Assembly: GCA_013390745.1 (NCBI GenBank)
Contig: JACASX010000004.1
Coordinates: 1 to 64,000 of the forward strand
DNA from: Marine Group I thaumarchaeote
GTDB taxonomy: Archaea; Thermoproteota; Nitrososphaeria; Nitrososphaerales; Nitrosopumilaceae
Direction of reading: 5' to 3'
Length of the DNA: 64,000 nucleotides
The notes below the pieces were generated by a model. That model worked only from the letters and a program-made list of their open reading frames with translations. It ran no database searches and was not told the origin of the DNA. The stretch's first letter is position 1. Each line of letters begins with the position of its first letter. The position numbers and the translations under genes are program-made. This document shows positions 23,690 through 31,403 of the stretch, piece after piece.

Positions 23690-23763
23690 GGTGAGGTAGT
23701 ACAGTCCGGTAGTGCATGGGCCTGCAAAGCCTAGTGTCGGGAGTTCAAATCTCTCCCTCACCT
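23690..23763 (+). tRNA. tRNA-Cys (GCA)
   Basis: A complete cloverleaf. The acceptor stem pairs GGTGAGG with CCTCACC, the D stem GTAC with GTGC, and the anticodon stem TGGGC with GCCTA around loop CTGCAAA, giving anticodon GCA. The T stem pairs GGGAG with CTCTC around TTCAAAT. The discriminator is T, usual for tRNA-Cys. CCA is not encoded. There is no intron. Confidence 0.95.
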
Positions 23764-23829
23764 CTTTGATCCTGGTTATTTCATAATTACCCACCCTTTC
23801 TTAAGGGGAACAAAAGATCAAAATCAAAA

Positions 23830-25584
23830 TTGACATCTAAAGAAGCGACTCTCTTAGATTATAGCGAGGAGGGACGTACTCTCCTAACTCAACTATCAAG
23901 TGCACCTCTTGAAGGATTTGCAACGCATGCAGTAGATGCAAGCATTACTGAATTCATGAAGGACGCAAAAAACGAAGTAGAGAAAGGACATCTCTACCTT
24001 TTATGGCATTTACTATACGTTGAAGAAGTACTGGAAGATGTTGCAGAAAATGCAATAATAGATGGTGCATATGATTGTGGAATTGACGCGTATTTGGTGG
24101 ATACTTCAGAAAAAAGAATTAGATTATTCCAATCAAAGTATGGCGAAGCTCATTCTGTAGGAGCAATTGACAAATTCATCAAGGACGTTGATCGGTTCAA
24201 AAAATTAGAACAGTCAAAGATCAGACGAGATGAGTTACAATATCTTTGGAAACATCTTCATGAAAAAAACATGAAGACAGAGTTAGTTTACATGACTGAT
24301 AATGATGTAGACGAGTATGAAAGTGGTGAAGTGAAAGTTGTGGGAAAGGAACAGGTCTATCAAATATTGTGGGAACGCATTAAGAAACCAGCCAAAGGAG
24401 AAAAGTCTAGTTTGAGTATTTTAAAATGCCTCGAGCATGATAATGCATTATGCTGCATTGTTTCTGCATTTGACTATGCAGATTTTGTAGAAAGGAATGA
24501 ACATTATGTCTTCGAGTCAAATATTAGAAAACATCTTGGCGGAAAAGGATCAATTAACAAAGGAATTACAAAAACTCTAGAAGAAGATCCCCACAAATTC
24601 TTTGAATGGAATAATGGGATTACCATAACTGTAGATGATTACTCGATGAAAAATAATCAGCTTAGCCTAGGAGGAGCACAAATTGTCAATGGTGCGCAAA
24701 CATCTAAGAGCATTCTTGACAGAAAAAAGAAAACAAACAACCTAGATGCAGAAGTTTTGGTTACCATTATTAAAACCAAAGATGAGGAACACCAGAGAAA
24801 TATCACAAAATACAGGAACTCCCAGAATGCCATTAAAGGTAAAGACTATGTCTCGCTAGAGGATTACCATATAGCAATACATTCCATGTTAGAAAGGATA
24901 GGCTATTTCTATGAACATCAACAGGGTTCTTGGCTGAACCTTTCATCTTCGGAAAAAGCTAAATTCGATGGTAATGAGATTTACAACAAATACCTATCAG
25001 ATAAAAAAGAAAAATGTAGAATCAAAGATGATACTGCGATTGCCTCAATGGTCTCATATTTTGAACAGAAACCAAATGATGTGTATGGCGGCATAGGAAA
25101 ATATCTCCCCAAGGGTGCAAAATATGAAACTGTCTTTGATGATGAACTAGAATGTGATTATCGATACTTCCTATTTCCACACTTAATTCGTGAATATGCC
25201 AAAAATGTATTGGGATACGACAGAAGTAATACTCAAAATAGATACAAGAAGTATGCACAGAATCTTTTTGTTGCAGTCACTGCAAGAATAATTCACAAAA
25301 ACATTTTAGGAACAGATGATGATTTTAAGAAGGATATTTCTGAATTGGAAAAGATGATTCAAAATATTGGATTGTTCACAAAAATTCTAAAAACTACCGA
25401 CAAGGTTGTAACAAAATTCCTTGAAGATTCTAAGGTTGAAGAAAAGATAGATGAGGCCAATACTGCTCATAACTTTTTTTCAAACCAAGTTTACAGCAAA
25501 GACATGTTGGAAGTAATAGATTCGAAAATTAGACAAGAACAAGAAGAAATAGACTATATCAAAAAAACAATTTCTGGCATATAA
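23830..25584 (+). CDS. AIPR-family (abortive infection phage resistance) protein
   Basis: 584 residues with the AIPR core: NIRKHLGGKGSINKGI, FFEWNNGITITVDDYS, QIVNGAQTSKSIL and KYRNSQNAIKGKD. The N-terminal part (DGAYDCGIDAYLVD..RLFQSKYG) resembles a PD-(D/E)XK nuclease, with D in GIDAY and QSK. AIPR proteins occur in abortive-infection and restriction contexts. The start is TTG, 66 nt after tRNA-Cys, a common landing site for accessory genes. No duplicated tRNA end was found on its far side. Confidence 0.85.
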   Translation: MTSKEATLLDYSEEGRTLLTQLSSAPLEGFATHAVDASITEFMKDAKNEVEKGHLYLLWHLLYVEEVLEDVAENAIIDGAYDCGIDAYLVDTSEKRIRLFQSKYGEAHSVGAIDKFIKDVDRFKKLEQSKIRRDELQYLWKHLHEKNMKTELVYMTDNDVDEYESGEVKVVGKEQVYQILWERIKKPAKGEKSSLSILKCLEHDNALCCIVSAFDYADFVERNEHYVFESNIRKHLGGKGSINKGITKTLEEDPHKFFEWNNGITITVDDYSMKNNQLSLGGAQIVNGAQTSKSILDRKKKTNNLDAEVLVTIIKTKDEEHQRNITKYRNSQNAIKGKDYVSLEDYHIAIHSMLERIGYFYEHQQGSWLNLSSSEKAKFDGNEIYNKYLSDKKEKCRIKDDTAIASMVSYFEQKPNDVYGGIGKYLPKGAKYETVFDDELECDYRYFLFPHLIREYAKNVLGYDRSNTQNRYKKYAQNLFVAVTARIIHKNILGTDDDFKKDISELEKMIQNIGLFTKILKTTDKVVTKFLEDSKVEEKIDEANTAHNFFSNQVYSKDMLEVIDSKIRQEQEEIDYIKKTISGI

Positions 25585-27521: not shown

Positions 27522-27624
27522 AAGCCTCGAGCGAGATTCGATCTCGCGACCTAACGCTTACGAGGCTCATCTTTCCTATCGGAAAGAGGGGATTTCCTCT
27601 AAAGAGAAAATCAGTTCGCTCTAC
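27522..27624 (-). pseudogene. tRNA-Thr fragment (duplicated 3' part with a 47-nt insertion)
   Basis: Bases 27522-27566 are identical to 29978-30022, covering the tRNA-Thr anticodon arm to its 3' end. The 11-bp D-arm piece at 27614-27624 also matches the tRNA (30023-30033), but 47 nt intervene. The acceptor 5' strand is missing, so no tRNA can form. The insertion has two hairpins, CTTTCC-GATA-GGAAAG and AGAGG..CCTCT (minus strand). It looks like the far attachment site of an old integration at tRNA-Thr. Confidence 0.85.
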
Positions 27625-27639
27625 TTTGATTAAATAGAA

Positions 27640-29082
27640 TTAATTGGTAAATTTTTTATTCACGGTTTGCGTATCCTTATCAAGTTTATTGGTAAATTCT
27701 TTATTCACGATTTGCATATCCTCATCAAGTTCATTGGTAAATTCTTTATCCACGATTTGCATATCCTCATCAAGTTTATTCCTAAACATTACCAATCTTC
27801 GTATAGCCTCAAAGTTTGTCATAACTGCCAGAATGATTAGTGCTATTGGAATTTGATTAGTTAAAGCACCAATTGTTATGAGTAGTAATCTCATGTCTCT
27901 CCCTATGCGTATTTGATGGCTTCCAATACTCATGGTCATTTTGAGATTAAGGTCGTATTTGTCTGCAGTATAGCTGTTAAGGAAGCTTCCAATTATTGCA
28001 AAAAATCCGAGTACCCATATTGTGATATCTCCATTGATACTCCAGTAACCATAGACTAGTCCAAAAACAATGATAGCATCAACATATCTGTCTAAAACTG
28101 AATCAAGCCAAGCTCCATACTTTGTCTGTCTTAGTTTAAGACGTGCTACTTCCCCATCACACCCATCCACTATAGAATGTATATGAATTAGTATTCCTCC
28201 TAAAACTAGATAAAAATATTCTCCAAGGAAGAAAAAAGATGCACCAACTAAACCAATAACAAAACTCAGAACTGAGATTTGGTTTGGTGTAATTCTTGTT
28301 TTTAGCAATATTTTAGAAAGTCTCAGTGAAAGTGGTCTGTTGAGTATTGTTGATATTGGTCCGTCTGTATTTTTTTTGAGTTTGTTACAAATGAGCAGTT
28401 CTGCATTATTCTTATCTGTTTTATCGTCAACATCAATCCAGAAATTGTCTTCAAGTGGCATATATCTCATCTTGCGTCGTTGTGCTAGAATTGATATTGC
28501 ACCAGAAAGACCCTCATCTCCATTGGAGATGCTTTGTTCTAATGCATCAAAAATTACAGGATTGCATATGAATATGCCAGTATCGATACAGTTGTAATCA
28601 CTTAGCTCTTTACCAATTACTTCGATTCTATGATCTATAGTTAGAACCTTTGTAGCATCATCTATGTTTAGATAATTTTTTGGATTTTTATCAACACAAA
28701 GTATACATTCATCTTTTTTGATCTTCGTTTTTAATAATTCGTTTAATATTCTATGGTCATAGTTGTGATCAGCCATCAAAAGTACAAATGATTCCTTAAA
28801 ACGATCTCTAGCCTTTAGGACTGAAATAGCATTGCCTCGAGTCCATTGATCATTTTGAATATACCGTATCTTTACACCATATTTTTTTCCATCAGATAGC
28901 TGCTCACGAATATTCTCCCCATGATATCCTACTACAATCTCAAATTCTTTAATTCCTGATTTTTTTGCAGTAAGGATAACTCGTTCTATAAGACATAAAC
29001 CAAGGAGGGATGCCAATGGTTTAGTATCCACAACAGATCTCAGTCTTGTTCCTTGCCCTGCGGCAATAATTAACGCTTTCAT
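27640..29082 (-). CDS. Bifunctional nucleotidyltransferase / CDP-alcohol phosphatidyltransferase (IPCT-DIPPS type)
   Basis: 480 residues. The N-terminal domain has ALIIAAGQGTRLR and TKPLASLLG of sugar-phosphate nucleotidyltransferases and LLMADHNYD. From about residue 240 a membrane CDP-alcohol phosphatidyltransferase follows, with DGCDGEVARLK and the later G...D...D ligands. This fusion matches inositol-1-phosphate cytidylyltransferase/DIPP synthase. The IMPase gene upstream, overlapping the start region, fits inositol-phosphate metabolism. The product (soluble DIP or a phosphoinositide) is uncertain. The C-terminus carries three 15-residue repeats. Confidence 0.85.
   Translation of the reverse strand: MKALIIAAGQGTRLRSVVDTKPLASLLGLCLIERVILTAKKSGIKEFEIVVGYHGENIREQLSDGKKYGVKIRYIQNDQWTRGNAISVLKARDRFKESFVLLMADHNYDHRILNELLKTKIKKDECILCVDKNPKNYLNIDDATKVLTIDHRIEVIGKELSDYNCIDTGIFICNPVIFDALEQSISNGDEGLSGAISILAQRRKMRYMPLEDNFWIDVDDKTDKNNAELLICNKLKKNTDGPISTILNRPLSLRLSKILLKTRITPNQISVLSFVIGLVGASFFFLGEYFYLVLGGILIHIHSIVDGCDGEVARLKLRQTKYGAWLDSVLDRYVDAIIVFGLVYGYWSINGDITIWVLGFFAIIGSFLNSYTADKYDLNLKMTMSIGSHQIRIGRDMRLLLITIGALTNQIPIALIILAVMTNFEAIRRLVMFRNKLDEDMQIVDKEFTNELDEDMQIVNKEFTNKLDKDTQTVNKKFTN
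27643..27777 (-). repeat. Three tandem 45-bp repeats at the gene's 3' end
   Basis: Three in-frame 45-bp units (27643-27687, 27688-27732, 27733-27777) encode copies of the pattern N(E/K)LD(E/K)D(M/T)Q(I/T)V(D/N)K. They form a charged tail after the membrane domain. Units two and three differ at only a few bases, so the expansion looks recent. Confidence 0.9.
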
Positions 29083-29087
29083 TTTTA

Positions 29088-29891
29088 TCACTGTTTTTTT
29101 ATTTCAGATGTTATTTGATCTAGACTTTCTTGATTGGCTGCACCAATAAATGACAATCTAGTCATCGTTGCAAAATCTGAATCTAATGGTTGTAAATCTG
29201 CATCCACTATTAAACCACCGGCTTCTTTGATTAACAGATATCCTGCAGCCATATCTTGAATTCTAATTTTACCTCGTAAATCAATGAAAACATCTATTGA
29301 ACCTCTTGCAAGAAAAGCCATCTCAAGTGCATTTGCCCCAAAGTGTCTTGTAGGGCTATGACGTTCAAAAATTGTCTGTAACTTTTCCAAAAGTTCTGGA
29401 GATGCCCCGGATGTATTCACCCCAACAATTTTGTGTACTGTTTCTTTATTTTGTACATGGATTTTAGTCTCATTCAAAAATGCGCCTTTCCCCTTTGATG
29501 CCCAATACTGTTCTCCATTTGATAGATTAGTAACTACTGCATCCGTAATAGAACTCAGTTTGTTATCTGTTGCAAACGCTAAGGAACAGCAGAAGAACGG
29601 AATGCCGTTAACTGCATTAGATGTTCCGTCAATTGCATCCATAATGACATATCCTTTTGGATTATCATTTATTTCGACACGCCCACATTCTTCACCTAAT
29701 ACAATACAATTGAAATTAGTTTGTTTTAGATAATCTAGAACTGTTTTTTCAGCTATGATGTCAATATTTTGTGAAATATCTCCACCAGCACCTCTGCCAA
29801 AATCACCTGTAGTGTATTCTGTTATAGACAGATTTTTTACATTATCAAAAACTTGTTTTGAAACTTGCCGTAAAATTTCGATTACTTCCAT
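29088..29891 (-). CDS. Inositol monophosphatase family phosphatase
   Basis: 267 residues. Motifs are GEECGR, MDAIDGTSNAVNGIPFF (metal-binding DxxDGT) and IRIQDMAAGYLLIKEAGG. Archaeal members hydrolyse inositol-1-phosphate and often fructose-1,6-bisphosphate. Its stop overlaps the upstream region of the IPCT-DIPPS gene (TGA at 29088-29090), so the two are one operon for inositol-phosphate metabolism. Confidence 0.9.
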   Translation of the reverse strand: MEVIEILRQVSKQVFDNVKNLSITEYTTGDFGRGAGGDISQNIDIIAEKTVLDYLKQTNFNCIVLGEECGRVEINDNPKGYVIMDAIDGTSNAVNGIPFFCCSLAFATDNKLSSITDAVVTNLSNGEQYWASKGKGAFLNETKIHVQNKETVHKIVGVNTSGASPELLEKLQTIFERHSPTRHFGANALEMAFLARGSIDVFIDLRGKIRIQDMAAGYLLIKEAGGLIVDADLQPLDSDFATMTRLSFIGAANQESLDQITSEIKKQ

Positions 29892-29978
29892 AACAGAAAT
29901 AAATTTTTTAGTAATTTAAATGAAAAAAAATACAGAAGAAAATGTAGTAGATAAAGTTGCAAGTGTGGGAACAAATCA

Positions 29979-30052
29979 AGCCTCGAGCGAGATTCGATCT
30001 CGCGACCTAACGCTTACGAGGCGTTCGCTCTACCAGGCTGAGCTATCGAGGC
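29979..30052 (-). tRNA. tRNA-Thr (CGT)
   Basis: A full cloverleaf on the minus strand. The acceptor stem pairs GCCTCGA with TCGAGGC, the anticodon stem AACGC with GCGTT around CTCGTAA (anticodon CGT), and the T stem GCGAG with CTCGC around ATCGAAT. Discriminator T. It is intronless. Its 3' 45 bp, including the trailing AAG on the plus strand, recur at 27522-27566. Confidence 0.95.
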
Positions 30053-30104: not shown

Positions 30105-31403
30105 TTGAAAATATCAGTGTCAGGAATCAGAGGCGTTTTTGGGAAAGACTTGATGTTACGTGATATCTTGAAATTTTCAAAGAACTTTTCTGTACTAATA
30201 AATTCAAAAAAATGTGTTATCGCAACAGATACCAGACCAACTGGACAGATGGTAGCAGAAACTGTTAAAGCTGGATTAATGCAATCAGGCATAGATGTTT
30301 ATGATTTAGGAATAGCACCGACCCCTGTAGCGTTTCGGGAATCGCGTAAATATGGTGCAGGAATCATTGTTACTTCTTCACATAATCCTATAGAATGGAA
30401 TGGGCTAAAGATGATCATAGATGGAAAGGGAGTAAACGAAAAACAACTTGATACGGTAATGAACGAACAGAACCCGCCCAAGTCAAAAATTGGAGAAGAG
30501 CATAAAATTGAATCCGCCTATGTTGATGATGCGTCTAAAATCATAGGAAAAATATCTGACATTCCTAAGGTTGTAGTCGATATTGGAGGCGGGGCTGCAA
30601 AGGGATTTCCATCGCAATTACTAGAGAAAGTTGGATGTGATGTTGTTACAATTAACAGTGAATTAGAAAAAAGCTCTAGGGGACCTGACCCAACAGTGGA
30701 TACACTGGAAGAGCTTGTAACAAATACCAAAAACAGGGACATCGGTTTTGCCTTTGACCTGGATGGCGACCGACTTGTTATTGTGATTAATGGAGAAAAA
30801 AAGGACCCTGATGTTACGCTAGGAATGGGAGTAGTCAAGGCGCTTGAACTAGGTTACAAAAATTTTGTGCTTAGCCAGGATACCAGCATATCTGTTGAGA
30901 AGTACATAAAACAAAACGGTGGAACAGTTTTCCGTTCCAAGGTGGGTGAAGCAAACGTTACTGAAAAGATGATTGAAACAAAATCGCAGGTTGGTGGCGA
31001 GGGAAGCAGTGGCGGTTTCATTCTGTCTGACTTTAACTACTGCCGCGATGGAATTTTGGCTAGCGGCCTGATTGCATCAATAATTAAGAAAGACGAGTTT
31101 GTTGATGCACTGAACTTTATGGAAAAATATCATATCATAAGGGACAAGGTAGAGTACGATTCAGAACACCATGACGATATACTGAAAGCACTGCATAGCA
31201 AGATGAAGGAAAAATTTGGCAGTGTGGAAACTCTTGACGGTATTAAAGCGATAGTTGACGAGGATAGTTGGGCGCTGGTCAGAAAATCAAACACTGAAAA
31301 CTCTATTCGCGTGTCTGCAGAATCCAACAGCTTGGAAAAAGTTAGAAACATCCATCAAGAGATAAAGGATCTTGTCAAAGAAAGCTATGAACAAATTAAG
31401 TGA
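30105..31403 (+). CDS. glmM: Phosphoglucosamine/phosphomannomutase family enzyme
   Basis: 432 residues with ISVSGIRGVFG at the start, the phosphoserine loop VTSSHNPIEWNGLK, the metal loop DLDGDRLV, the sugar loop GEGSSGGF and a C-terminal phosphate-binding region with RVSAES. It interconverts hexosamine or hexose 6- and 1-phosphates; GlmM is the preferred label but PMM/PGM activity is possible. Start TTG. It overlaps thiL by 17 nt. Confidence 0.88.
   Translation: MKISVSGIRGVFGKDLMLRDILKFSKNFSVLINSKKCVIATDTRPTGQMVAETVKAGLMQSGIDVYDLGIAPTPVAFRESRKYGAGIIVTSSHNPIEWNGLKMIIDGKGVNEKQLDTVMNEQNPPKSKIGEEHKIESAYVDDASKIIGKISDIPKVVVDIGGGAAKGFPSQLLEKVGCDVVTINSELEKSSRGPDPTVDTLEELVTNTKNRDIGFAFDLDGDRLVIVINGEKKDPDVTLGMGVVKALELGYKNFVLSQDTSISVEKYIKQNGGTVFRSKVGEANVTEKMIETKSQVGGEGSSGGFILSDFNYCRDGILASGLIASIIKKDEFVDALNFMEKYHIIRDKVEYDSEHHDDILKALHSKMKEKFGSVETLDGIKAIVDEDSWALVRKSNTENSIRVSAESNSLEKVRNIHQEIKDLVKESYEQIK

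Follow-up and report, generated by a model that had tools for sequence, protein, structure and literature searches.

Cryptic integrated elements of Thaumarchaeota were surveyed by Krupovic et al. (2019, PMC6563490) and are inserted into the 3′ ends of tRNA genes, where they are bounded by direct repeats of the attachment (att) site. According to the available text of that survey, they span 2.6 to 98 kb, have the integrase as their best-conserved protein and mostly carry att repeats shorter than 26 bp. One of them, NitEve-E3, has an SSV1-like integrase that is split on integration (PMC6563490), and a 2021 review describes SSV-type “suicidal” integrases as enzymes that target tRNA genes and whose own gene contains the 40- to 50-bp att site and is split when the element integrates (PMC8371274). 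A gene for a fused IPCT-DIPPS protein and one for an inositol monophosphatase (IMPase) have been described close together on a small island, along with a TATA-box-binding-protein gene, in hadal Thaumarchaeota (MAG MTA1, PMC7265257) and in deep-sediment clades (PMC8397731). This island is reported as horizontally transferred and transcribed at depth, and its proposed product is di-myo-inositol phosphate (DIP), an osmolyte, with the phosphatase acting last; the available text of the two papers names neither an integration site nor a vehicle (PMC7265257, PMC8397731).

The locus described here lies in a stretch of 64,000 nucleotides (“the window”) from a Marine Group I thaumarchaeote of the Nitrosopumilaceae (assembly GCA_013390745.1, contig JACASX010000004.1, positions 1 to 64,000). 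It resembles the cryptic thaumarchaeal elements in its insertion at a tRNA 3′ end and its direct att repeats, but is only 2.46 kb long, encodes no integrase, carries a metabolic gene pair and nothing else, and has an att repeat of 45 bp. With the hadal island it shares the same two closely spaced genes; here, however, the pair stands alone, within a tRNA att site. Two relatives (G097 and G117) display the features of SSV-type integrases at this tRNA, whereas the integrase of the present element would have been lost save for a possible stub. Tycheposons, tRNA-site elements of marine bacteria in the ocean plankton, have metabolic cargo and use other recombinases; the locus is like them in its tRNA site and metabolic cargo, and unlike them in being archaeal and in its probable recombinase. 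Both the DIP-gene island and tRNA-integrated thaumarchaeal elements are thus already published, and a search of titles and the openings of abstracts, covering mostly papers outside subscription, found no work linking IPCT/DIPPS genes to a tRNA integration site. The DIP genes are a published transferred trait of deep-sea ammonia-oxidizing archaea for which the available text of the two reports names no vehicle (PMC7265257, PMC8397731), and the present locus offers a concrete, datable case of transfer: it has a recombinase site, sister species show the empty site with base precision, and an integrase family occurs at the same site.

Repeat, target tRNA and empty sites

Two copies of a 45-nt sequence, 100% identical and both on the minus strand, lie at 27522..27566 and 29978..30022 (2,456 bp from start to start), an exact repeat far beyond what chance would produce. 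The original prediction had described this repeat as bracketing IMPase and IPCT-DIPPS-type genes, with an intact tRNA-Thr at the right, a fragment at the left and a common direction, and each of these points was confirmed. The right copy corresponds to positions 31 to 75 of the integration target, an intact tRNA-Thr (CGU) (29979..30052, minus strand; ARAGORN; Rfam tRNA, 66.3 bits), and includes one T beyond the gene. The left copy is identified by repeat comparison and empty-site alignments as the displaced tRNA-Thr 3′ end (attR-like). The direct repeats are therefore copies of a tRNA 3′ end with the intact tRNA at one end, as in tRNA-integrated elements, and the insertion is bounded on that side by the 3′ part of the intact gene (attL-like). 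The genome yielded no further complete tRNA-Thr(CGU). Between the repeat copies, the only genes are an inositol-monophosphatase-family gene (29088..29891; 267 aa) and an IPCT-DIPPS-like gene (27640..29091; 483 aa; NTP transferase plus CDP-alcohol phosphotransferase), both assigned by domain searches and alignment. They lie on the minus strand, that of the tRNA-Thr, overlap by 4 bp and are intact.

To the right of the tRNA and in the opposite reading direction lies a GlmM-like gene (30105..31403, plus strand; identified from domain and profile searches and from relatives' loci), a conserved host neighbor that fixes the site. The pairing of tRNA-Thr(CGT) with glmM was found at 28 of 30 GlmM loci, the present one included, and was lacking only at L063 and at L062, which lies at a contig end. 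Elsewhere in the window (23690 to 25584), an AIPR-family gene follows tRNA-Cys, and similar genes occur in the corresponding region of G117 and G097.

Comparison of the tRNA-Thr locus with relatives lacking the gene pair revealed base-exact empty sites in the six closest species (G030, G002, G026, G004, G008 and G024), where tRNA-Thr directly joins the DNA that lies beyond the left fragment here. When the flanks were joined at the core, 172 of 174 aligned bases were identical to G030 and 157 to 170 bases were identical to the other five. The two flanks, compared with G030 over 12 kb and 1.5 kb, were 94.5% and 96.9% identical, respectively, and homology broke exactly at 27566 and 29978. Regions of 31 relatives were checked, of which 29 gave a tRNA-Thr(CGT) call (none was called in L092 or L095), and a second tRNA 3′ copy was found at none of these 29 readable tRNA-Thr(CGU) loci within the 2.2 to 12 kb of downstream DNA inspected for each. 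The pair and the tRNA fragment are thus not fixed at this position among relatives.

Elements at the same tRNA and their integrases

The search for tRNA fragments took in eight genomes. Two of them, the one-contig genome G117 and G097, each have on a common strand an intact tRNA-Thr(CGU) and a fragment of its positions 33 to 74/75, separated by 12.2 kb and 13.2 kb, respectively, with the same tRNA, orientation and core as in the present insertion. In both, an integrase of family PF16795 adjoins the tRNA-Thr fragment, the integrase frame passes through the att core, and rejoining of the element ends yields one 365-aa frame from an ATG. Judged from these frames, the two integrases are of SSV type in a self-splitting arrangement, and the tyrosine-recombinase integration pattern claimed for the locus is matched by elements of 12 to 13 kb at the same tRNA that carry the expected recombinase. 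Relatives of this integrase type were detected in 11 of 250 family genomes and in none of the genus, where PF16795 had no match in any of 31 genomes. In the genome itself, no integrase was found by PF00589, by PF16795 or by direct search with the G097 protein (the assembly being 86% complete); the PF00589 search missed the relevant integrases, which belong to PF16795. Phage records gave no integrase match either.

Some further observations concern elements elsewhere in the family. In G117 (L178/L226, C1), the T-arm of the intact tRNA-Thr is unlike that of the displaced native 3′ half and like that of the window's subclade; from these sequences, the element is read as having swapped part of the tRNA-Thr. 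Several PF16795 integrases in other genera (L232 to L243) adjoin what by eye appear to be other tRNA 3′ ends, and the family seems to have switched its target between tRNAs. In G184 (L182/L227, C18; 4656-11755), a tRNA-Thr 3′ fragment (positions 33 to 74) lies near Cas1 and PolB genes, a casposon-like pair. A casposon origin of the present insertion was considered and rejected, as the element in the window holds nothing casposon-like.

At the left end, the tRNA match continues past the core. A 47-nt spacer with two hairpins (27567..27613, minus strand; tRNA comparison and folding) separates the core from 11 nt, GTAGAGCGAAC (27614..27624, minus strand), that match tRNA-Thr positions 20 to 30, giving the left copy 56 tRNA-matching bases in total, interrupted by 47 nt. 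Two occurrences of the 11-mer in the window compare with an expectation of 0.01, and this D-stem match is a feature that the original prediction had missed. At the corresponding place in G097, within the integrase gene, a 28-nt hairpin spacer is followed by 10 nt of the same D-stem, so that both loci have the order core, hairpin spacer and D-stem 10-mer; the 47-nt spacer itself had no counterpart in the other 249 of 250 family genomes. An open frame of 36 codons on the plus strand leads out of the core, across the spacer and up to a TAA (27523..27633), in the frame of the C-part of the G097/G117 integrase, and is probably an integrase stub. Its protein match to the integrase beyond the core is SLY, which is weak, and its homology there consists in the frame and the 10-nt match, itself tRNA sequence and missing from G117. 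The rejoined frame at this locus has 44 codons and no start, and the other integrase half is absent. The insertion therefore encodes at most a stub of an integrase. The claim that the integrase is gone held for the genome as searched, but was perhaps slightly too strong, given that the in-frame stub abuts the fragment.

Proposed mechanism and its closest alternatives

The repeat, the empty sites and the same-site split-integrase elements, together with the patchy distribution, the conflict between gene and host divergence and the purifying selection described below, are most probably explained by an SSV-type element that integrated site-specifically in the recent past and whose integrase has since disappeared, so that the osmolyte genes stay behind as fixed cargo. 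A mobile element with the IMPase and IPCT-DIPPS genes would have entered tRNA-Thr(CGU) by recombination at the 3′ half of the gene; the incoming 3′ half would have made the tRNA whole again, and the native one would have ended up 2.46 kb off, at the opposite end of the insertion. A tyrosine integrase of the SSV (“suicidal”) type, its gene containing the att site and being split on integration, is the most likely recombinase. By analogy with G097 and G117, we infer that such an enzyme acted here and that its gene was lost after insertion, save perhaps for the 36-codon stub. Since the integrase gene is missing, the pair would be permanent cargo, and the empty sites, the att repeat and the lack of an integrase in the genome bear out the earlier suggestion that the two genes are a fixed passenger of an element. 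A self-splitting integrase can in this way leave useful genes behind, and stress-protection genes (here for a putative inositol osmolyte) may be movable between ocean archaea through a tRNA integration site.

Alternatively, the pair could have been mobilized in trans, as a satellite-like 2.4-kb circle with no integrase of its own and an att site used by the SSV-type integrase of another element. This would suit the lack of an integrase gene, the intactness of both cargo genes and the spacing of only 6 bp between the stop of the stub and the neighboring gene. However, the stub is equally well explained by loss after insertion, and there was no sign of a further copy at a different tRNA, of a free circle or of a copy in viral contigs, which makes the reading unlikely. 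We attach a similarly low probability to its broader form, a minimal integrase-less archaeal “metabolic cassette” (a 2.4-kb circle of osmolyte pair and tRNA-Thr att) moved between genera of marine ammonia oxidizers by SSV-type integrases in trans. Homologous recombination without any integrase, by crossing over of a circle or fragment with a tRNA-Thr 3′ piece within the 45 bp, would give a product identical in appearance to the observed repeat, and 45 bp is a short yet usable length of homology. It is nonetheless very unlikely, as the ends coincide with a classical integrase site and two independent integrase-bearing elements use the same site and orientation.

Assembly support

The genome is a draft assembly of 18 contigs (86% complete), in which the repeat could have led the assembler to join unrelated pieces, and the contig that independently records the right junction is a chimera. 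This record, CATLOT010000001.1 (L244 1-2195), is filed as Bacteriovoracaceae and starts with the tRNA-Thr/IMPase/DIPPS stretch, fused to bacterial DNA. The left junction was seen in one assembly only, but the right junction has been seen twice, because CATLOT010000001.1 matches the right part for 2,195 bp, including the whole tRNA-Thr, at 98.3% identity (dS of 0.04 to 0.05), and we consider an assembly artefact highly improbable.

Distribution, divergence and age of the gene pair

IPCT-DIPPS was found in 13 of 250 family genomes and in 2 of 31 in the genus, namely the present genome and G026, whose copy lies at a pdxST-like locus (pdxST being read from translations) with no IMPase nearby. In a tree of 16 rows, the DIPPS of the window did not group with that of G026, which joined G073 and G062 (support of 90/97, not starred); on this tree, the two copies in the genus are not related as vertical sisters. 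Compared with G141, from another genus, dS was 0.35 for IMPase and 0.50 for DIPPS, while GlmM dS against members of five other genera (G141 not among these comparisons) was saturated in four and 2.3 in one. Against same-genus G026, dS was 0.89 for DIPPS and 0.44 for GlmM. The phylogeny of the DIPPS gene, part of the check that had been proposed, thus separates the window's copy from that of G026, and the genes diverge in a way that does not follow their hosts. The insertion is young because G030, with its empty site, differs by a dS of just 0.08 in the neighboring GlmM gene, and the earlier description as an “old element” has to be abandoned.

Had the genes instead been ancestral here, with a local duplication of the tRNA 3′ end and deletion of the region in relatives, deletion between direct repeats would likewise have left clean empty sites. 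Several independent exact deletions would be needed across the subclade, however, and gene divergence disagrees with host divergence; such a history has a very slight chance of being correct. Slightest of all is the chance that the 47 nt are an archaeal intron in the anticodon stem and the left copy a tRNA gene that is split or contains an intron, a reading that we rejected: the exon-like parts on either side match tRNA-Thr exactly, but nothing corresponds to the first 19 tRNA bases and the exons are thus incomplete, no such intron occurs in the other 249 family genomes, no bulge-helix-bulge is evident by eye in the listed folds, and G097 has the same layout inside its integrase gene, with two tRNA bases missing.

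A tRNA fragment was found at none of the 12 other IPCT-DIPPS loci, and a search for long flanking direct repeats at 7 of these 12 revealed nothing att-like. Viral contigs gave no match in one search and a single match at 20% identity in another, and phage records gave weak partial matches only.

Structure and predicted function of the cargo genes

Across relatives, dN/dS was 0.12 to 0.27 for DIPPS (nine relatives with a finite value) and 0.14 to 0.21 for IMPase (six relatives), ranges that leave out the near-identical L244 copy (0.30 and 0.08, respectively); by this measure, both genes are under purifying selection. The IPCT-DIPPS-like protein combines an N-terminal nucleotidyltransferase and a C-terminal CDP-alcohol phosphotransferase in one chain, and D312, G313, A316, R317, G326, D330 and D334, which we take to be the motif of bifunctional IPCT/DIPPS, are invariant across 11 aligned sequences. 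The match to NCBIfam NF041135, a Thermococcales model, is near full-length and scores 298 bits, below the curated cut-off of 580. The domains and motif residues of both genes agree with the published DIP reading, and the pair is predicted to make di-myo-inositol phosphate as an osmolyte.

A PF07994 search for myo-inositol-1-phosphate synthase, which would provide the inositol phosphate substrate, gave 0 of 31 for the genus, with 5 of 14 positive in the control; inositol-lipid-type synthases nevertheless seem to be present in these genomes. At the end of the IPCT-DIPPS gene, the last 15 codons stand in three 45-bp tandem copies (27640 to 27786), of which the two extra ones are absent from all ten relatives in the alignment.
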